A stretch of 29,570 nt of DNA, from positions 1-29,570 of IMG/VR virus record IMGVR_UViG_3300037827_000181. The stretch is one strand, 5' to 3'. The notes beneath the pieces are model-generated. The model had not been told where the DNA came from. It did not search any database and saw only the letters and a program-made list of their open reading frames with translations. Source of the stretch: a virus. Below, piece after piece: positions 12,525 to 29,005 of this stretch. Every line of letters starts with the position of its first letter. The stretch's first letter is position 1. A program made the translations under genes and the position numbers.

Positions 12525-12935
12525 GTGGTAGATCCCGCGACGGACTGGAGGGTGCCCGACGGGTGCCGCTTGTCGCAGGCGGAGTGGGAAGTGATGCAGC
12601 AGCTCGTGAAGGGCCGCACGTACGGGGAGATCGCCGGGCTGCATGGCGTGTCGGTGTCCACGATCCGTACGCAGGCGATGGCGGCGTACCGGAAGCTCGG
12701 CGTACACAAAGGCGCGCAAGCTGTGCTGAGGATGCAGGAACTTGGGTGGATGGTCAAACCCAAGCCGCCACCCGAGGCGCTTGTTGCGTATCGGGAGACC
12801 GCGGACGAGCGCAAGGAGCTCGTCGGCTACCTGGAGCGCGCGGCGTGGCTCGCTGACAGGCTCTCGGAGCCCGCGTGGGTTCGCGTGCTGGAAGCGCTGG
12901 TGCAGCGGGCGAGGGAGGGAGCCGGACATGGGTGA
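12525..12935 (+). CDS. LuxR/GerE-type helix-turn-helix protein inside the tail operon
   Basis: 136 residues from GTG 12525. Residues 15-75 show a LuxR-type HTH: LSQAEWEVMQQLVKGRTYGEIAGLHGVSVSTIRTQAMAAYRKLGVH split across helices, with the recognition-helix signature VSVSTIRTQ and the YRKLGV end. Residues 85-136 are helical (ELVGYLERAAWLADRL). No receiver domain is present, so this is a stand-alone DNA-binding protein or a repurposed structural HTH. It overlaps the next start by eight bases. A regulator of late genes is possible. The ribosome binding site is poor, so expression may depend on the upstream genes. A short 11-codon frame (12475-12510) lies just upstream and may couple it. Confidence 0.65.
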   Translation: MVDPATDWRVPDGCRLSQAEWEVMQQLVKGRTYGEIAGLHGVSVSTIRTQAMAAYRKLGVHKGAQAVLRMQELGWMVKPKPPPEALVAYRETADERKELVGYLERAAWLADRLSEPAWVRVLEALVQRAREGAGHG

Positions 12936-18220: not shown

Positions 18221-18685
18221 TTAGGCTGCTGGTTGTGAGCCCTCCAGCCCGCTGGCGCAGGGGTTGGCTTCTTCGCCTTCTTCGGGTCTCAGGGGTGCTT
18301 CGACCCCCGGGTCGCCGGCGGGCAGCTCTTCCCATTCCCTTTCCAGCCGGTAGCGGAAGCTCCACGAGCCGACCTTGTGGACAAGCAGTTTCGCGTTGAG
18401 GCGGACGGGTTCGCCCTCTTCCGAGTAGCACAGGCCGAGAGTCATGGTGCATTCCGCCTCGTAGGGCTGCCCCCACTTGAAGCACGAGGAGGCGACTTTC
18501 TGGTCCTGTATCCGCCAGATGCGGTGCCCTTCGCGTTCCGCGTAGTCGTCGGCGAGGACCGCGGCCGTGCTGGTCGAGAGCGAGCTGAGCCGGTGTCGAT
18601 AGACGCCGTGCGCGCTGGCCGGGGCGGCGACGGTGAGGGTGAGGGTGAGGGGTAGGGCGAGGATGGGGGCTAGACGCTTGAACAT
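18221..18685 (-). CDS. secreted protein of unknown function (antisense moron gene 2)
   Basis: 154 residues, on the opposite strand to all surrounding tail genes. Residues 1-25 are a clear Sec signal peptide (MFKRLAPILALPLTLTLTVA, cleavage after APASA). The mature part has RIWRIQDQKVASSCFKW, YEAECTMTLGLCYSEEGE and SWSFRYRLEREW, with three cysteines, and an acidic Glu/Pro-rich tail. The layout is reminiscent of small secreted proteins of Thermoleophilia, but I know no function. The start lies two bases after the lipoprotein stop, so the pair is an operon. It converges with the tape measure gene, 28 bases away. A role at the host surface, for example blocking superinfection, is inference. Confidence 0.65.
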   Translation of the reverse strand: MFKRLAPILALPLTLTLTVAAPASAHGVYRHRLSSLSTSTAAVLADDYAEREGHRIWRIQDQKVASSCFKWGQPYEAECTMTLGLCYSEEGEPVRLNAKLLVHKVGSWSFRYRLEREWEELPAGDPGVEAPLRPEEGEEANPCASGLEGSQPAA

Positions 18686-18687
18686 GG

Positions 18688-18975
18688 TCAGCGCCCTTCC
18701 GCAGAGTTGGCTAGTTCTTCTGCGTGGCGGTGCTTGATGACCGCTTCAGCTTCGTGCTCTTCACCTTCGATCTGCTTGTCGTGCTGTTCGCGTTTGGCTT
18801 CCTGGATTGCGGCTGCCGATCCGCACTTTTCTTCGGCGGCGACTTCGATTGAGGGGCAGCCTTTCGACACGAGGGCTTCGTCGTGCTTCGTAGTTTCTTC
18901 GGGGGTCGCACATCCCGCGAGAGGGACGGCTAACACGGTGGTGGCGAGTAGTGCTGCTGCTAGCTTGGTGGTCAT
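18688..18975 (-). CDS. small lipoprotein, candidate superinfection-exclusion factor (moron gene 1)
   Basis: The start at 18975 is fixed by AAGGAGGG (complement of 18980-18987); a longer frame from 19020 adds 15 residues that would bury the signal. The 95-residue product begins MTTKLAAALLATTVLAVPLA followed by GC, a textbook lipobox with Cys22. The mature part is about 70 residues, highly charged and helical (EEKCGSAAAIQEAKREQHDK, EGEEHEAEAVIKHRHAEEL). Phage lipoproteins of this size include known superinfection-exclusion proteins (for example Ltp of TP-J34, which acts on tape measure protein). Location beside the tape measure gene makes that role worth testing here, but there is no sequence evidence of homology. 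Confidence 0.7.
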   Translation of the reverse strand: MTTKLAAALLATTVLAVPLAGCATPEETTKHDEALVSKGCPSIEVAAEEKCGSAAAIQEAKREQHDKQIEGEEHEAEAVIKHRHAEELANSAEGR

Positions 18976-19002
18976 CGGACCCTCCTTGTCTGGGTTCGGT
19001 CG

Positions 19003-19069
19003 GCCCCCGGCGGCGTACACCGCGCGGGGGCTCTTACATGGGCCGGGGAGCGTATCAGAGTATGGAACC
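19003..19069 (+). repeat. hairpin-plus-box leader element, copy 1
   Basis: GCCCCCGGCG (19003-19012) pairs with CGCGCGGGGGC (19021-19031) with one bulged base. A box follows: ATGGGC, any base, GGGGAGCGTATCAGAG, any base, ATGGAACC (19038-19069). The same structure occurs at 23163-23232. Here it lies between the antisense moron and the Dit-like gene. The distance from the box end to the ribosome binding site is seven bases, and to ATG 19090 it is 20 bases; copy 2 has nearly the same spacing. It probably ends read-through and restarts late transcription. Confidence 0.65.
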
Positions 19070-19089
19070 GCGACGTAGGAGGCCCCAGC

Positions 19090-20583
19090 ATGAGCGTCCC
19101 CCTAGCGTCCCTCACACCACCCTTGATGGGTGGGTTTCCGCAGGTGCCCCTGCTCGATAGCTGGCGTCGCGAAGAAGATCCCCTCTCTGGTGATGGTCGG
19201 TGGCGTCAGCTACCGTGGGCGCTAGGTTCGGGGGCTCTCGGTGAAGGAGGACTGCATGGATGGGCACCAGCCGAAGTCTTCCCCGATCTTTATGGGGCGC
19301 TCTGGGTCCCTGGCGGCGAAATCTCAACGCCGGCCGTGTCGTGCGAACTCCACGATCTCCCGCGCCTCGCCGAACGGTTCATGCGGCTGTGGCTGTGCCT
19401 GGCGCCCGCGACCCACTCGGGGTACGCTGTCGCGGTCACAGAAACTAGCGTGGAACGCGTCTTCACGCTGACGATCGAGAAGTGGGTCGATGGCGCGAAG
19501 AGCATCCTCGGCTCGACCACCGTCACGCTCGCCGAAGGAAGCGTCGTGGGCGCCACGGTCAACCTCGGCACCGTGCGTGCATGGTGCGACGGGGCAGTCG
19601 TCGGCGAAGCGTCAGACTCGACGTACACCAGTGGATATGTCGGGATGGAGGCGGAGGGGCCAGACCAGCGGTGGCAGAACTTCAGCGCAAGCTCATGGGC
19701 TGGCCCCGTGTGGGCTTTCAACTACGGTGGCCTGGCGTTCGGTGGTGTCGATCCGGGTGCAACCTACCAGCTTCAGGAACTCCCCGAAGGCATCGGGACA
19801 CCGGACTATGTGACTGGGGATGTGCAGCGCGCGATCGAGCAGGGCGAATACGCCGGGGTGGACCTGTCGCCGGGCCGGAACGTCACGGTCAAACAGATAG
19901 CGCAGGCCGCGACAGACGCTGAGCTGGACGAAGCCCGCCAGGCGTTCGGGGATGTGCTGAGCCCGAGGGGCTCGACTGAGGAACCGTTGTATATACAGCT
20001 CGCGTCGGGGTTGTGGTGCTGCATGGCGCGCCCCCGGAAACACACGCCGGTGATTGATGTAAACACGCTGGTAGGCAAAGGGACGGTGCTCGCCACACTG
20101 TTCCACGCGACCGACCCGCGGTGGTACACGACGCCTACCCAGTCCGCGACGGTGGGGTTGCCGGAACCGGGTGGGATCGAACCGCCGATCACGCCGCCGG
20201 TCACGATCCCCGGCGGCGCGGGTGGCCTGATCGAAGCGGTGAACGCCGGGGGCATGTACATGTACCCCCGGCTCACGTTCACCGGGCCGTGTTTGAACCC
20301 GAAGGCGAGCAACCTCTCGCTACCTGGCGCACCTAGCATCCAGTTCGAAGTCTCCCTAAATCCCGGCGACACGCTGACGGTGGATATGAACTGGCAAAGC
20401 GTGATCCTTGTGACCGCCGGCTCGACCAGTGGCAGCAGTCGGCGGAACACGGAAATGGCCGGCAGCGAATGGTGGAGCTTTCCCGGTAAGAGCACGAACC
20501 TCGTGGAGTTCACCTCGGAAGACTCGACGCATGTTGCTGGCACTTTGACGGTCGAATGGGCTTCGGCCCGCCTGGCGCTCTGA
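19090..20583 (+). CDS. distal tail (Dit-like) protein fused to a lectin-like domain
   Basis: 497 residues; AGGAGG at 19077-19082 sets the start. Residues about 25-205 look like a concanavalin/LamG-type beta sandwich (DSWRREEDPLSGDGRWRQL, ERFMRLWLCLAP, FTLTIEKWVDG, VGATVNLGTVRAWCDGAVVG, SGYVGMEAEG), a likely glycan-binding fold. Residues about 235-350 are the linker region (SPGRNVTVKQIAQAATDAEL). Residues about 385-497 match the C-terminal Dit-type galectin-like domain (YMYPRLTFTGPCLNPKASNL, NPGDTLTVDMNWQSVIL, WWSFPGKSTNLVEFTSED). Dit proteins form the hub at the tail end. Placement right after the moron and before the Tal-like gene supports this. Its stop overlaps the next ATG (TGATG). Confidence 0.65.
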   Translation: MSVPLASLTPPLMGGFPQVPLLDSWRREEDPLSGDGRWRQLPWALGSGALGEGGLHGWAPAEVFPDLYGALWVPGGEISTPAVSCELHDLPRLAERFMRLWLCLAPATHSGYAVAVTETSVERVFTLTIEKWVDGAKSILGSTTVTLAEGSVVGATVNLGTVRAWCDGAVVGEASDSTYTSGYVGMEAEGPDQRWQNFSASSWAGPVWAFNYGGLAFGGVDPGATYQLQELPEGIGTPDYVTGDVQRAIEQGEYAGVDLSPGRNVTVKQIAQAATDAELDEARQAFGDVLSPRGSTEEPLYIQLASGLWCCMARPRKHTPVIDVNTLVGKGTVLATLFHATDPRWYTTPTQSATVGLPEPGGIEPPITPPVTIPGGAGGLIEAVNAGGMYMYPRLTFTGPCLNPKASNLSLPGAPSIQFEVSLNPGDTLTVDMNWQSVILVTAGSTSGSSRRNTEMAGSEWWSFPGKSTNLVEFTSEDSTHVAGTLTVEWASARLAL

Positions 20584-21851
20584 TGAACCCGTTCAAATAC
20601 CTCGCGAGGGATCTCCTCACCTGGGCGCCGCTAGACCCGCTGCCCTACCAGGGAGTGACATTCGGGAAAGTCCTTGACCAGCACGGCCCGTGGTCCGGCA
20701 AGCTCCCGCTCCCACAAATGTGGGACGCGGCGACCAACACGTTCCTGTTCGACTGGAAAGACGCCACTCGTACTAGTCGCACAGCGCTGTTCGTAGACCT
20801 CCAGGGCACGCTCGTGTGGGGCGGCATCCTCTGGACCACCAACTACGAATCGGACGACCAGACACACTCCCTGGCCGTGGGGGCCACGGAGTTCGGGAGC
20901 TACTACCAGCACAGGTTGCAGGCCGACAACTATGAAGACACATGGCCAGAACCCGGCGAAGACCCCATGAAGATTATCCGGCGGGTCATCGAAGATGCCC
21001 AGGCGGCGGAAGTGGCGCCGCGGAAAGTCATCGTGGGGCCTACGACCGGTTCGCTCACCGAAGAGGAAATCCCTGGCCCCGGCTACATCACCGGCTCGAA
21101 AATCCCGATCGTGCTGCACGGCCCCGAAGGCTTCGACGTGTTCGTCCAGTACCCCGGCACGAGCCTTCAAACGATCGACTCGATAAACAGCACGCTCACA
21201 CAGATCGGGTACGGCCCCGGCTACGACTTTAGCTGGGACGTGGAATACCTTCCCGGCACGAACATACCCGCCGTCCAGCTCAACCTCTATCGGCCGCTGA
21301 AAGGGCGCACCGCAGAGGAATCCGGCATCGTGATCCTCGCCGGTGACACGGTGAAATGGACATGGCCGGAGGACGGCTCAGAACAAGCCACCGAAGTGAC
21401 CGAGACGGGCTCGGGCACGGGGGGCTTGGAGCCCGCGCATGCGACCGCGAACTACCCCGGCTACCCCCTCTCACAGAAGGCGACCGCGCGGACGCAGATC
21501 ACGACCGAGGGCCTGCTTGAGATAGTGGCTCTCGGCGACCTCGCGCTGTATGGGTATCCCGTCGTCTCCCCGGTGATCGTGCTGGCCGCGTCGCTGCCGG
21601 ACACCCCGGCGCAGGAACGCAAGACACTCGCGTTGGGCGAATACGATGTGGGGGACAGGTTCACGTTCAAGGTCACACCTATGGCGCAGGGCGGCCCACA
21701 CACCGACTATAGGTTCCCCGAAGGAATGGAGTGTGAACTCCGCATAAACGCGTGGACGTGCACGCCGGCTGACCACGGGCTGAGCACCGTGCAGTTGACG
21801 TGCGGCCCACCACCGCTCGGGTACGTGCCTCCTCCACAATTGCCGCACTGA
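20583..21851 (+). CDS. minor tail protein, tail-hub (Tal/gp37-like)
   Basis: 422 residues from ATG 20583, coupled by TGATG to the Dit-like gene (an upstream ATG at 20556 would overlap it). Motifs LARDLLTWAPLDPLPYQGVT, LPLPQMWDAATNTFLFDW, TALFVDLQGTLVWGGILWTT, LQTIDSINSTLTQIGYGPGY and QKATARTQITTEGLLEIVAL are those of the actinophage minor tail protein encoded directly after Dit. It likely forms the baseplate hub that contacts the cell surface. The C-terminal 60 residues (VGDRFTFKVTPMAQGGPHTD) are beta-rich. No protease motif was seen. Confidence 0.65.
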   Translation: MNPFKYLARDLLTWAPLDPLPYQGVTFGKVLDQHGPWSGKLPLPQMWDAATNTFLFDWKDATRTSRTALFVDLQGTLVWGGILWTTNYESDDQTHSLAVGATEFGSYYQHRLQADNYEDTWPEPGEDPMKIIRRVIEDAQAAEVAPRKVIVGPTTGSLTEEEIPGPGYITGSKIPIVLHGPEGFDVFVQYPGTSLQTIDSINSTLTQIGYGPGYDFSWDVEYLPGTNIPAVQLNLYRPLKGRTAEESGIVILAGDTVKWTWPEDGSEQATEVTETGSGTGGLEPAHATANYPGYPLSQKATARTQITTEGLLEIVALGDLALYGYPVVSPVIVLAASLPDTPAQERKTLALGEYDVGDRFTFKVTPMAQGGPHTDYRFPEGMECELRINAWTCTPADHGLSTVQLTCGPPPLGYVPPPQLPH

Positions 21852-22249
21852 TGCCCGCTCCTACTCCACCCAGCCCCGGCAAACAGCTCTTCGATGGCAT
21901 CAACCAGCAGCTCGCGCAGATCAACTCGTGGATCAGGACGTTCAGCGCAGACTCGGGATGGATCAACCCTACCCTGCTGAATGGCTGGAAACAGATCACC
22001 GCACAGCCCGTGGAGTACCGGCTTACCAGGAACGTGGTAAGGCTACGTGGTGTCGCGGAGGAAGGGACAGCAGCGAAACCGTTGTTTGTTCTTCCCGAAG
22101 GCTACCGGCCCACCATAACCGAAGGCTACGTTCTCTACAACGGAAGGGAATCCCCGGCGCGACTTGTGATCTTTTTCAACGGGGAAGTAGTTATTGAGAG
22201 TTTTGAAGGGGTGGTCGCCCTGTCGGGTGTCACCTTCACGATCGACTAG
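21851..22249 (+). CDS. small tail-tip protein, candidate receptor-binding protein
   Basis: 132 residues; ATG 21851 overlaps the upstream stop by one base (TGATG). The N-terminus is a Pro-rich linker and a helix (FDGINQQLAQINSWIRTF). Residues 50-132 carry a beta domain of the type seen at tail-fibre tips: RNVVRLRGVAEEGTAAKPLF, VLPEGYRPTITEGYVLYNG, RLVIFFNGEVVIESFEG, VVALSGVTFTID. Such tips bind host surface glycans. The receptor is unknown. Confidence 0.55.
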   Translation: MPAPTPPSPGKQLFDGINQQLAQINSWIRTFSADSGWINPTLLNGWKQITAQPVEYRLTRNVVRLRGVAEEGTAAKPLFVLPEGYRPTITEGYVLYNGRESPARLVIFFNGEVVIESFEGVVALSGVTFTID

Positions 22250-22258
22250 GAGACCTGC

Positions 22259-23119
22259 ATGGCACTAACCGGGTGGGCTGTAGACGAACTCAAATCAGAC
22301 GCTGAGGTGATCCGCCAGTCGATCGGGTCACTGATCGGCTCGGCCGGAGGGCTAGTGGCTGCTGGCGGCTTGGAATTGAAACAGAAGGGCACGCCGAACA
22401 TGAGTGTGCAGATCAAGGGCGGCACTCCAGCCGAAGGCGGCTTGTGGATTCCGGGCTACACCACCTCAACGGGGCCGTACTACTTCCAGAACAGCGCCAC
22501 CTATGAACAGGTGATCGAAGCGTCGGGGGCAGAGCCGCGGGTGGACACGATCGTGGCGCGGATGTATGACAACGCGGTGGATTCCTCGGGTAAAACCGAA
22601 CCCGTGTTTCAGGCGTTGAAAGGCGTGGAAGCGTCGGGTACGACGTTGGGGAATAAGAAAGGGATCGCGGCTGTCCCGAAAAACTGCTCTGTGCTCGGCT
22701 ATGTGCTTGTGGAAAAAGGCGCATCGTCGATCGTGACCGCCGATATTGAACAGGCTGCGACGGTGGTAGTCGGCGGCGTGGCACCTCCCGCCGAATCCGT
22801 CACGGACTCCGCAGTGGTCAAAGGCCGGGCGCTAGTCGAGACGGGAAACTCCTGGAAATCCCTAGCCTATACTAAAGGTGAAACGATCACGCCCAACGCG
22901 AGCCGGGAGACAGCGGTCAGCATTGAGGTGCTAGGGGAAGACAACGAACTGGTGGCTATTCAGGTGTCGGTCAATGGTCAGTCCGTAGGAGAAGCGGTAG
23001 GTGGCCCCATAGAAGGTAGGCACACCCAGATAGTTTTCCCGACGATCGTCCCGGCCAATCAGACGCTGAAAGTGGGCGGCTCCTACACGATCATCAACAT
23101 CAAAGCCCTTACGCGCTAG
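22259..23119 (+). CDS. minor tail / baseplate protein
   Basis: 286 residues, starting after AGGAGACCTGC. The N-terminal part is helical (VDELKSDAEVIRQSIGSL), followed by beta and Gly-rich sections (PNMSVQIKGGTPAEGGLWIP, QVIEASGAEPRVDTIVARMY, LGYVLVEKGASSIVTADIEQ). The section near 55-175 is similar to baseplate upper-protein modules encoded in this position of many siphoviruses. The C-terminal part (SIEVLGEDNELVAIQVSVNG, FPTIVPANQTLKVGG) is another beta domain. It is the last gene of the tail-tip unit; the second hairpin-plus-box element follows 44 bases after its stop. Confidence 0.55.
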   Translation: MALTGWAVDELKSDAEVIRQSIGSLIGSAGGLVAAGGLELKQKGTPNMSVQIKGGTPAEGGLWIPGYTTSTGPYYFQNSATYEQVIEASGAEPRVDTIVARMYDNAVDSSGKTEPVFQALKGVEASGTTLGNKKGIAAVPKNCSVLGYVLVEKGASSIVTADIEQAATVVVGGVAPPAESVTDSAVVKGRALVETGNSWKSLAYTKGETITPNASRETAVSIEVLGEDNELVAIQVSVNGQSVGEAVGGPIEGRHTQIVFPTIVPANQTLKVGGSYTIINIKALTR

Positions 23120-23162
23120 TCAGCGTCTGGTTTGCATCGGGGCCTCCAGGGGTTCCGGTCAT

Positions 23163-23232
23163 GCCCCCGGCGATTACAGCTCGCGCGGGGGCGCTTTGCG
23201 ATGGGCAGGGGAGCGTATCAGAGGATGGAACC
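23163..23232 (+). repeat. hairpin-plus-box leader element, copy 2
   Basis: Same design as at 19003-19069. GCCCCCGGCG (23163-23172) pairs with CGCGCGGGGGC (23182-23192). The box is identical except at the same two variable bases. Here it follows the tail-tip genes and precedes the lysis region. The ribosome binding site GGGGGG (23240-23245) and ATG 23251 sit at nearly the same distance from the box as in copy 1 (20 and 18 bases to the start codon). This spacing argues for a functional leader rather than a chance repeat. Confidence 0.65.
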
Positions 23233-23250
23233 ACAGGCAGGGGGGTCGTG

Positions 23251-23295
23251 ATGCTGACGCTGAGACTGGAGACCCATTGCAGCCTGCGACCATGA
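23251..23295 (+). CDS. 14-codon leader peptide coupled to the next gene
   Basis: ATG 23251 has a strong GGGGGG site upstream and reads MLTLRLETHCSLRP before a TGA at 23293-23295. That stop overlaps the ATG of the next gene as ATGA. The start codon sits where the conserved leader element predicts a start. It may be a minimal ORF that delivers ribosomes to the following gene. A role as an independent protein is unlikely. Confidence 0.35.
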   Translation: MLTLRLETHCSLRP

Positions 23296-23582
23296 TCCGC
23301 TGGAATGACGACAGGATGGATGACCTGAAGCGCCAAGTAGATGGCATGGCGCCCACGGTGCAGTCCGTGGCGGTTCTGCGGGCGGAGATGGCGACGCTGA
23401 CCCGGGACCTGGAAGCAAATAGCCGCGGCCAGGAGAAAATCGCGCAGCAGCTCGAGCAGGCGCAGCTAGAGCCGTTGACGCGCTCCAGGAACCTACGGTC
23501 GCAGGCGCTCATTGCGATCACGGCAGCGGTGATCGGAGGAGGTATAGCTGTTCTCGGTGCTCTGCTCGCGGGAGCGCACTGA
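23292..23582 (+). CDS. coiled-coil protein with C-terminal membrane anchor, lysis region
   Basis: 96 residues if begun at ATG 23292, the ATGA-coupled start; TTG 23277 with GGAG five bases upstream is an alternative adding five residues. Residues 5-70 are a coiled coil (RMDDLKRQVDGMAPTVQSVA, AEMATLTRDLEANS, QEKIAQQLEQAQLEPL). Residues 75-92 form one transmembrane segment (ALIAITAAVIGGGIAVLGAL). This type is commonly found beside holin and endolysin genes. It may help anchor or regulate lysis proteins. No family name is assigned. Confidence 0.6.
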   Translation: MIRWNDDRMDDLKRQVDGMAPTVQSVAVLRAEMATLTRDLEANSRGQEKIAQQLEQAQLEPLTRSRNLRSQALIAITAAVIGGGIAVLGALLAGAH

Positions 23583-23971: not shown

Positions 23972-24253
23972 CTACACGCTGACGAACAGCGCGTCGCGGA
24001 GTTCTTGCACGAGCTGTTCACCGTCGCTGATCCCGCCGGTCCACCTCGAGACCCGCTCGCGGAGCTCGGCGGGGATCTCCAGATCCCAGCGCATCGCGCT
24101 CGCGACCAGTGTCGCCAGGTCCTGGCGGATAGTCCCGCGTAGGGCTTCCAGGGCGCGAGCGCGCGCCAAGTCGTCGCTGTTGCAAAGGATCGCCGGGCGC
24201 AGCACGCCAGGCGCGACTTCGAGCAGCAATCCGTATGTGAGCGTGGTGGACAT
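23972..24253 (-). CDS. antisense hypothetical protein inside the lysis region
   Basis: 93 residues, MSTTLTYGLLLEVAPGVLRP at the start. A far longer frame (up to 24766) runs through unlikely Ser/Arg-rich sequence that is the reverse of plus-strand genes, so the short form is preferred. The C-terminal 65 residues are helical and charged (ARALEALRGTIRQDLATLVA, EIPAELRERVSRWTGG). No family recognised. There is no ribosome binding site; instead TACAAT lies seven bases upstream of the ATG, suggesting a leaderless transcript. Being antisense to the late genes, it is probably expressed from its own promoter, perhaps at another time in infection. Confidence 0.55.
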   Translation of the reverse strand: MSTTLTYGLLLEVAPGVLRPAILCNSDDLARARALEALRGTIRQDLATLVASAMRWDLEIPAELRERVSRWTGGISDGEQLVQELRDALFVSV

Positions 24254-27712: not shown

Positions 27713-28065
27713 CACCGGTTCCGATTTTGGGCTCACGATCGTGGAGGCAAAATCGGAACCACGGGACTGAACACCCGGTCAAGCATCGCCACCGGAGCGT
27801 CTTCGACCGCTTCAACCTCTGCGTAGCCAACCACGAGGCCGGCGAACCGGGCTCAGAGTCCCCGCGCACCGTGGACTGGCACATCGTCGATCCGCCCTAC
27901 CAGGGTGGTTTCCAGTGGGACCCAAGTACATGGGCTGCTGCCGGTGGCCTCCGGTACGGCTCAGCGTCGGGCGCGAGCCCCGAAGACCAGACGCGGGTCT
28001 TCGATCACTACGAGCCGGGCGATCCCGGCGCATGGCCGATGAGCGTCCCGGCGTGCAGCGGATAA
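27661..28065 (+). CDS. Rpf-like (lysozyme-like) domain protein with out-of-frame start
   Basis: Residues after about 45 form a resuscitation-promoting-factor or transglycosylase-type domain: FDRFNLCVANHEAGEP with candidate catalytic Glu in NHEAG, DWHIVDPPYQGGFQWDPSTW, EDQTRVFDHYEPGDPGAWPM and VPACSG. Such domains cleave peptidoglycan or bind it. The frame contains no ATG; TTG 27661 would start within the signal peptide. The frame upstream to 27574 has no ATG, GTG or TTG either. The true start is probably the ATG at 27617 with a missing base. The Pro/Gly and Arg-rich linker between signal and domain encodes the 44-bp palindrome at 27717-27760. It could act in lysis or in host wall remodelling. 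Confidence 0.6.
   Translation: MAPATQPGVHAGGCRCVAPVPILGSRSWRQNRNHGTEHPVKHRHRSVFDRFNLCVANHEAGEPGSESPRTVDWHIVDPPYQGGFQWDPSTWAAAGGLRYGSASGASPEDQTRVFDHYEPGDPGAWPMSVPACSG
27717..27760 (+). repeat. 44-bp rod-like inverted repeat
   Basis: GGTTCCGATTTTG (27717-27729) and CAAAATCGGAACC (27748-27760) are exact complements, 13 bp. The 18-base loop holds a second perfect palindrome, CACGATCGTG (27734-27743). The whole can fold as a long rod in RNA or extrude as a cruciform. It lies inside the linker of the Rpf-like gene, five bases after the end of the short leader frame. Possible recombination site, att half-site or regulatory structure; it is too regular to be chance. Confidence 0.7.
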
Positions 28066-28263: not shown

Positions 28264-28434
28264 ATGCTTGATCGGCTGTGGGAGGACTTCTTCGGGGTGA
28301 TCGATCGGTTGGTGGATCGTGCGACCGAGGCGCTCACACCCTACGTTGGCGACGTGTGGGCCGGGACGCTGGTGGTGTGCTCCCCGATGTTCGGCTGCCT
28401 GCTGCTGGTCTGTCTCGTGATCGACCTTCGTTGA
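28264..28434 (+). CDS. 56-residue single-pass membrane protein
   Basis: ATG 28264 follows the -10 box by six bases. Residues 1-30 are an amphipathic helix (MLDRLWEDFFGVIDRLVDRA). Residues 32-53 form a transmembrane segment (WAGTLVVCSPMFGCLLLVCL) with three Cys. The small size and promoter suggest an early-expressed membrane effector. No family recognised. Confidence 0.55.
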   Translation: MLDRLWEDFFGVIDRLVDRATEALTPYVGDVWAGTLVVCSPMFGCLLLVCLVIDLR

Positions 28435-28540: not shown

Positions 28541-28584
28541 GCCACCCTTCCCGTGTTCTAGCGCGGGAATGGGTGGCCTTTTTT
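28541..28584 (+). terminator. intrinsic terminator
   Basis: GCCACCCTTCCCG pairs with CGGGAATGGGTGGC with one bulged base, and six T follow (28579-28584). It probably ends the transcript of the small genes upstream and isolates the winged-helix gene. Confidence 0.85.
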
Positions 28585-28744
28585 GTTGGGTGGGAAACGC
28601 TATCGGTAGTGGGTCAGTTTGAGAATCGGCCCCATGGGGGTCGTTGAAGGGTCTACGCTGCGCGGCATCCATAGCCAACAGCGGCCCCGGCGCGGGCTGG
28701 AACCCAACGCCGGAGCCTGAGCACAAAGGAGCAGTGACTCCCCT
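28585..28744. other. spacer before the winged-helix gene
   Basis: About 160 bases without a credible gene. It contains a 10-bp palindrome CCCCATGGGG (28630-28639), which could be an operator, and the AAAGGAG site (28725-28731) of the next gene, though it lies 13 bases from the start. No promoter with good hexamers was found. With the region just before it, this makes a stretch of about 310 bases without an identified gene. Confidence 0.4.
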
Positions 28745-29005
28745 ATGCCTGACCAGAACCCTACCCCTGATCCCGTCGCCGAAGCCAACGCGATCGAGCG
28801 CGACGTGCTCTACCTGCTGACCGGGGGCGACTCCCCGCTCTGGTCCGTCTGGGACCTCGCGCGCGCGACCGAGCGCGGCAAGTGCGTCAAAGACACGATC
28901 CGGTCCCTGCGTGTTAATGGCCTCGTCAACCAGACGAGCGACGGCCACGTGTTCGCCACGCGGGCCGCGTTCCGCATGGTGCAGATCGTCGGCGTCATCA
29001 ACTGA
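28745..29005 (+). CDS. small winged-helix DNA-binding protein
   Basis: 86 residues from ATG 28745; AAAGGAG lies 13 bases upstream, which is long. Residues 16-86 match a compact winged helix: ERDVLYLLTGGDSPLWSVWD (helix 1 and 2), DTIRSLRVNGLVNQTSDGHV (recognition helix and wing), FATRAAFRMVQIVGVI. The pattern 'x-V-x-D-x-I-R-S-L-R-x-x-G-L-V' is typical of MarR/ArsR-type or replication wHTH modules. It may be a phage regulator. Converges with the HicB-like gene. Confidence 0.65.
   Translation: MPDQNPTPDPVAEANAIERDVLYLLTGGDSPLWSVWDLARATERGKCVKDTIRSLRVNGLVNQTSDGHVFATRAAFRMVQIVGVIN

Follow-up and report, generated by a model that had tools for sequence, protein, structure and literature searches.

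The stretch of DNA analysed here (hereafter the window) is a 29.6-kb phage fragment, positions 1 to 29,570 of IMG/VR record IMGVR_UViG_3300037827_000181, that carries a head-to-lysis late region and contains two copies of a conserved sequence box, each beside a GC-rich hairpin. We put the probability at about 0.8 that both copies represent a promoter and a folded 5' leader RNA, read on the minus strand and serving small accessory genes. An earlier note, made from the letters alone, had placed them on the plus strand as structured leaders opening the tail-tip and the lysis transcription units. In Actinomycetota, the leader family to which the copies belong is found ahead of accessory and mobile genes, whether on phages, plasmids or chromosomes; it is not listed in Rfam. 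For this leader module the strand, the homology, the structure of the first hairpin (hairpin 1) and the location ahead of genes can be regarded as established, and the portable promoter and leader would most likely control accessory-gene expression post-transcriptionally.

The two boxes are identical at 30 of 32 positions, a similarity for which shuffled sequences give a chance expectation of zero, and the best other match to the box anywhere in the window is 19/32. The adjoining GC hairpins have a common single-base bulge and differ by one compensatory pair change, so that the earlier description of near-identical boxes beside similarly bulged stems is borne out by the comparison. The similarity between the copies spans beyond the hairpins (approximately 18966-19069 versus 23128-23232), covering the Shine-Dalgarno (SD) sequence and start codon of a minus-strand lipoprotein gene. 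The features of the two copies are as follows, R1 being the covariance model described below and distances being in nucleotides (nt).

19038-19069, minus strand: box of copy 1, 32 conserved bases, predicted promoter region, from the box comparison
19049-19057, minus strand: candidate extended -10 element TGATACGCT of copy 1, within the box and ending 17 nt 5' of hairpin 1
19003-19031, minus strand: hairpin 1 of copy 1, a GC stem with a 5' bulged C, from its R1 score and family covariation
18979-18995, minus strand: hairpin 2 of copy 1, ACCC-agacaagga-GGGT, which holds the SD sequence
18688-18975, minus strand: lipoprotein gene behind copy 1, MTTKLAAALLATTVLAVPLAGC..., first gene of a two-gene operon
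18221-18685, minus strand: secreted-protein gene, second gene of the lipoprotein operon
23201-23232, minus strand: box of copy 2 with TGATACGCT, its candidate -10 at 23212-23217, 19 nt 5' of hairpin 1
23163-23192, minus strand: hairpin 1 of copy 2, with CTGTAA in the loop, from its R1 score and a blastn match to relative G004
23135-23148, minus strand: SD sequence and start codon of copy 2, with an open reading frame (ORF) of only 5 codons, MQTRR

The strand was decided with R1, a covariance model built from five leaders of related phages with no window sequence included. On the minus strand R1 scored copy 2 at 40.1 bits (E 2.6e-9) and copy 1 at 35.3 bits (E 5.8e-8), as opposed to 9.4 and 11.0 bits, respectively, on the plus strand, where the E values for the two hairpins were 0.4 and 1.2. 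Comparison across genomes by blastn gave the same minus-strand orientation, the copy 2 leader matching relative G004 at 81% over 48 nt (E 4e-6). Moreover, copy 1 folded on the minus strand had a z score of -2.55, whereas the plus-strand RNA folds no better than shuffles (z +0.28 for copy 1 and -1.36 for copy 2). The earlier proposal that plus-strand leaders, worked by a phage-specific factor, open the tail-tip and lysis units does account for the SD sequences that come after the boxes on the plus strand, and for the box being the best-conserved part. However, with its far lower R1 scores, its shuffle-like folds and the leaderless Dit genes of the relatives (below), it appears very improbable. 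The start codons had been placed 18-20 bases past the boxes, and there is indeed an ATG at 23251, 18 bases past box 2 on the plus strand, but it opens a 14-codon ORF, MLTLRLETHCSLRP. The stop codon of this ORF and the start codon of a holin-like gene at 23292 share the sequence ATGA (span 23251-23582), and translational coupling is possible.

The third-best R1 match in the window is a third leader copy, which lies on the plus strand.

28654-28659, plus strand: candidate -10 TACGCT of the third leader, from the sequence
28677-28739, plus strand: third leader, 18.6 bits with R1 (E 0.003), also from its fold
28745-29005, plus strand: small gene behind the third leader, with no function assigned, from the ORF after the leader

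Hairpin 1 of copy 3 is at 28683-28717 with the loop CTGGAA, and its SD sequence GGAG (28728-28731) pairs with CTCC (28738-28741). A search of Rfam 15 gave no family above the gathering threshold at the leaders, the sole sub-threshold match being scr4677, which overlaps copy 3 (28546-28743) at 20.1 bits, below the cut-off of 41.

The relatives were taken from 80 IMG/VR loci found by capsid alignment, about 20 of which were near enough for comparison. In G002, G005, G009 and G011 the Dit gene overlaps the tape measure gene or starts within about 10 nt of it, and in G004 the two are separated by a single small plus-strand gene; with Dit directly behind the tape measure gene, there is therefore no counterpart of a tail-tip leader in the relatives. 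In G002, G004 and G011, minus-strand genes for secreted proteins or lipoproteins lie past the last tail gene and ahead of the lysis genes, some of them with this leader, and in G004 and G011 the minus-strand gene is preceded by sigma70 hexamers (TTGACA-18-TACCGT and TTGACT-17-GACAAT), a GC hairpin, and an SD sequence with ATG, in that order. It is in the minus-strand reading that the window leader aligns to the leaders of these two relatives. The further suggestion that the repeats could allow exchange of the tail-tip cassette by recombination is unsupported, because the gene order between the copies is unchanged in relatives and no examined relative has flanking copies. Phages further removed, with related capsid or tail genes, provided no convincing leader matches. 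G002 (L091; 40800, 48791, 50787) has repeated units of its own, consisting of a promoter of the TTGCAT-17-TAACCT type and an SD sequence, TGCTAACCT, before three genes.

The operon behind copy 1 sits between the tape measure and Dit genes, which abut in relatives; the minus-strand operon of the window was thus relocated to, or acquired at, this junction. The Dit-like protein itself (19090-20583) has an N-terminus resembling that of the relatives (MSVPLASLTPPL versus MPFPLASLTPPT) and, before the part in common with them, approximately 185 additional residues, an inserted domain close to the N-terminus. Neither Dit nor the minus-strand secreted protein found relatives when used as a query in direct protein searches of IMG/VR. 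At copy 2, whose place in G004 is filled by a secreted-protein gene, the gene appears to have been lost while the promoter, hairpin, SD sequence and start codon were retained, a loss that is suggested because of the G004 arrangement.

With regard to the promoter, TACGCT is found 17-23 nt 5' of hairpin 1 in all three window leaders, and in copies 1 and 2 it is TG-extended and lies inside the box. The motif TGATACG[CT]T has three occurrences in 706 kb, namely both boxes and one site 5' of a minus-strand secreted gene of G004, and the position of the box matches that of the promoter in relatives on the minus strand. The earlier note had found no sigma70 hexamers that fit at a common place, and hexamer prediction called none by either copy; in a test for -35 and -10 hexamers 16-19 nt apart, the window leaders have the -10 TACGCT without a -35, and TTGACA-17/18-TANNNT is present in some of the relatives' leaders. 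Two other assignments were rejected: an extracytoplasmic function (ECF) or sigma28-type promoter on either strand, as judged by eye from the inconsistent spacing, and a plus-strand sigma70 promoter, the hexamers of which were not found.

Hairpin 1 is supported by covariation across 55 family members: 95.5% of cells are paired, both-sided changes occupy 108 cells versus 28.5 in shuffles, and the covariation score is 0.454 versus 0.090 for shuffled and at most 0.069 for slid partners, a margin that is large, although the alignment was made with the family's own model and is biased to that structure, which detracts from our interpretation. A 5' bulged C is nearly invariant in the consensus and the apical loop frequently reads CKNNAA; the sequence just 5' of the hairpin is rich in A, and TGGCC is often found 3' of it. 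Upstream, TANNNT peaks 16-21 nt 5' of hairpin 1, several members having TTGACA 17-19 nt further upstream, and all three window copies, read in their sense direction, have TANNNT within the range of about 12-24 nt 5' of hairpin 1 that was used as a test of family membership. Downstream, 37 of the 55 leaders have an SD sequence and a start codon opening an ORF of 45 amino acids or more (background 5.8%); in the window, SD, start and ORF stand directly 3' of copies 1 and 3, and copy 2 has an SD sequence and ATG with 5 codons. This arrangement hardly suits intrinsic terminators between transcription units, with the box incidental. The hairpins are GC-rich and copy 2 does come after the stop codon of a tail gene, but the T-run is missing after the hairpins, neither was called in terminator prediction, the family hairpin lies between promoter-like sequence and the start of the same gene, and copy 1 is between divergent genes; we regard this as the least probable of the explanations.

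The SD sequence is often contained in a second helix that follows hairpin 1, precedes the start codon and is formed by many different sequences (CACCT/AGGTG, AACCT/AGGTT, ACGCT/AGCGT, CAGCT/AGCTG and TCAACT/AGTTGA). A helix of at least 5 base pairs over the SD sequence occurs in 21 of 53 leaders versus 3.8 expected, and with a fixed geometry not selected for pairing, at least 4/5 pairs are formed in 15 of 37 leaders at a loop length of 7, as opposed to 0-4 leaders at other loop lengths. Given its expected location about 10-15 nt into the predicted transcript, hairpin 1 might do no more than stabilise the mRNA at its 5' end, hairpin 2 being a product of chance or of SD context, with no specific regulator involved. 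This is rather unlikely, as the bulge, loop and flanks of hairpin 1 are conserved and the SD helix is well above expectation.

The wider family was collected with R2, a model from eight leaders that was applied to genomes at a threshold of E<=1e-3. Matches were found in 20 of 149 Actinomycetota genomes and 14 of 41 Streptomyces genomes, and a decoy model, in which the same sequences were written backwards, gave 0/149 and 0/41 in the same sets; the decoy is a near but inexact control because it has 9 pairs versus 11. Among phages, R2 detected a leader ahead of an HNH gene in Gordonia phage Asapag, a leader ahead of gene 33 in Arthrobacter phage Hum25, Gordonia phage Phendrix, and, weakly, Gordonia phage Sixama, ahead of a GIY-YIG gene. 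Consensus blastn added Gordonia phages Culver and Utz (ahead of an integrase) and actinobacterial plasmids, one leader preceding an antirepressor gene; with R2 the Culver leader is weak, Corynebacterium and Amycolatopsis plasmids are good and Utz falls below threshold. The distance from the match to the annotated gene start is 8-43 nt in Hum25, Culver, Utz and two plasmids; in Asapag the gene begins immediately past the match. In all, the genes behind family leaders include HNH and GIY-YIG nucleases, integrases, an antirepressor, SWIM zinc fingers, and secreted, HTH_17 and DUF6415 proteins. Weak R2 matches in L225, L228-L230, L232, L257 and L258 were discarded as false, since in these GC-rich genomes they apparently fall within coding regions. 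In L242 and L260 a leader stands ahead of a long ORF from 1501 that by eye is Cas1-like with an N-terminal zinc motif, and a match of 27.5 bits, beyond Actinomycetota, lies 5' of rep on the 2.3-kb E. coli plasmid NZ_CP023856 (L288, 206-262). The box itself is far more restricted: its exact sequence is absent from all other IMG/VR contigs, 41 related records contain no version of it with three or fewer mismatches, and megablast of the window against phage records returned no matches. The search for the box elsewhere that the earlier note proposed thus yields no further box copies, but it is the leader family that proves widespread, with a third copy in the window. Of the earlier interpretation, the repeated structured leader stands, with an SD sequence and start codon adjoining, and such an RNA may plausibly have a regulatory role; the strand and the genes assigned to it were wrong.

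How such a leader might act can be outlined from its sequence and predicted folds. The box, with its extended -10, would serve as the promoter, host RNA polymerase starting some 10-15 nt 5' of hairpin 1. Hairpin 1, near the transcript start, might shield the 5' end and/or be bound by a host factor; a short linker (approximately TGGCCA or CGACCGA) would separate it from the weaker hairpin 2, which, holding the SD sequence just 5' of the start codon, would restrict ribosome access. Transcription from the box, protein binding by hairpin 1 and translational control by hairpin 2 are thus what we would predict. In the window, copy 1 would drive the inserted lipoprotein and secreted-protein operon, copy 2 would be a remnant at the site of the relatives' gene, and copy 3 would drive the gene at 28745. 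Several observations weigh against this interpretation: none of the three window leaders has a -35 consensus, the loop of copy 1 departs from the common hexaloop, hairpin 2 has only 4 base pairs in copies 1 and 3 and is weak and unconvincing in copy 2, some near-cut-off genomic R2 matches fall within coding sequence, and the box of copy 2 is conserved despite having no gene to serve.

Because box 2 is conserved without a minus-strand gene, an additional role for the box, toward plus-strand genes or a DNA-binding protein, is conceivable. Under two-way control, the box would act as the minus-strand promoter and at the same time as an operator or promoter for Dit and the lysis genes on the plus strand, which would account for the retention of box 2 after gene loss; in G004 a motif resembling that of the box, TGATACGTT, lies between a minus-strand secreted gene and plus-strand genes. 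Yet the box contains no plausible plus-strand -10, and the gene loss may be recent; we consider such dual control unlikely. Returning to the minus-strand promoter and leader, the broadest formulation would be that of an uncatalogued cis-regulatory RNA family, with a bulged CKNNAA-type hairpin ahead of an SD hairpin, that forms a portable module shared by horizontally moving genes of Actinomycetota and of their plasmids and phages, whose translation is metered by a common host factor, a proposal that is possible but falls somewhat short of an even chance. Accessory genes need expression in every new genome they enter, and a common leader would be a general solution; being common to nucleases, integrases, antirepressors, SWIM-domain proteins and lipoproteins, it would mark such genes, and the leader family may itself be a target of host control.

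Other features of the window include a near-palindrome of 44 nt at 27717-27760, GGTTCCGATTTTGGGCTCACGATCGTGGAGGCAAAATCGGAACC, possibly an operator or terminator, and a LuxR/GerE-type helix-turn-helix gene among the head and tail genes (12525-12935) that has a weak likeness to sigma70 region 4. Leaderless-type promoters were recognised by eye at 24253 (minus strand; TACAAT 7 nt ahead of ATG) and at 28265 (plus strand; TTGAGC-17-TAGACT immediately ahead of ATG).

The leader family was compared with systems described in open-licence papers, beyond which an earlier description may exist. Structured, covarying 5' leaders ahead of genes are also the hallmark of the cis-regulatory families in Rfam, from which the present family differs in having no match in release 15. 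The start-associated sequences (SAS) of cluster K mycobacteriophages comprise a 13-bp element, GGGATAGGAGCCC, with 17-bp inverted repeats of subcluster-specific sequence at about half of the elements (extended SAS, or ESAS), all within one phage cluster (PMC3203893). These resemble the leaders in being repeated and in lying just 5' of the start codons of some phage genes only, yet their sequence and structure are different, and on reading the leaders no 13-bp SAS was seen at the start codon. The closest documented parallel is the ribosome-binding-site hairpins of homing endonuclease genes in T4-like phages, known from I-TevI, segB and Aeh1 mobE, and from seg43 of Aeromonas phage 25, where the hairpin is directly 5' of the ribosome-binding site (PMC2988022). 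As in the present family, a hairpin lies at or just 5' of the ribosome-binding site of an accessory nuclease gene, and translational control has been shown or proposed for these endonuclease hairpins (PMC2988022). In the T4-like systems, however, a promoter is placed so that late transcripts avoid the sequestering hairpin, whereas here two separate hairpins follow the promoter. Moreover, unlike the T4-like hairpins, the leaders described here head many genes that are not nucleases, and many phages and bacterial genomes share a hairpin 1 that is conserved in both its sequence and its structure.

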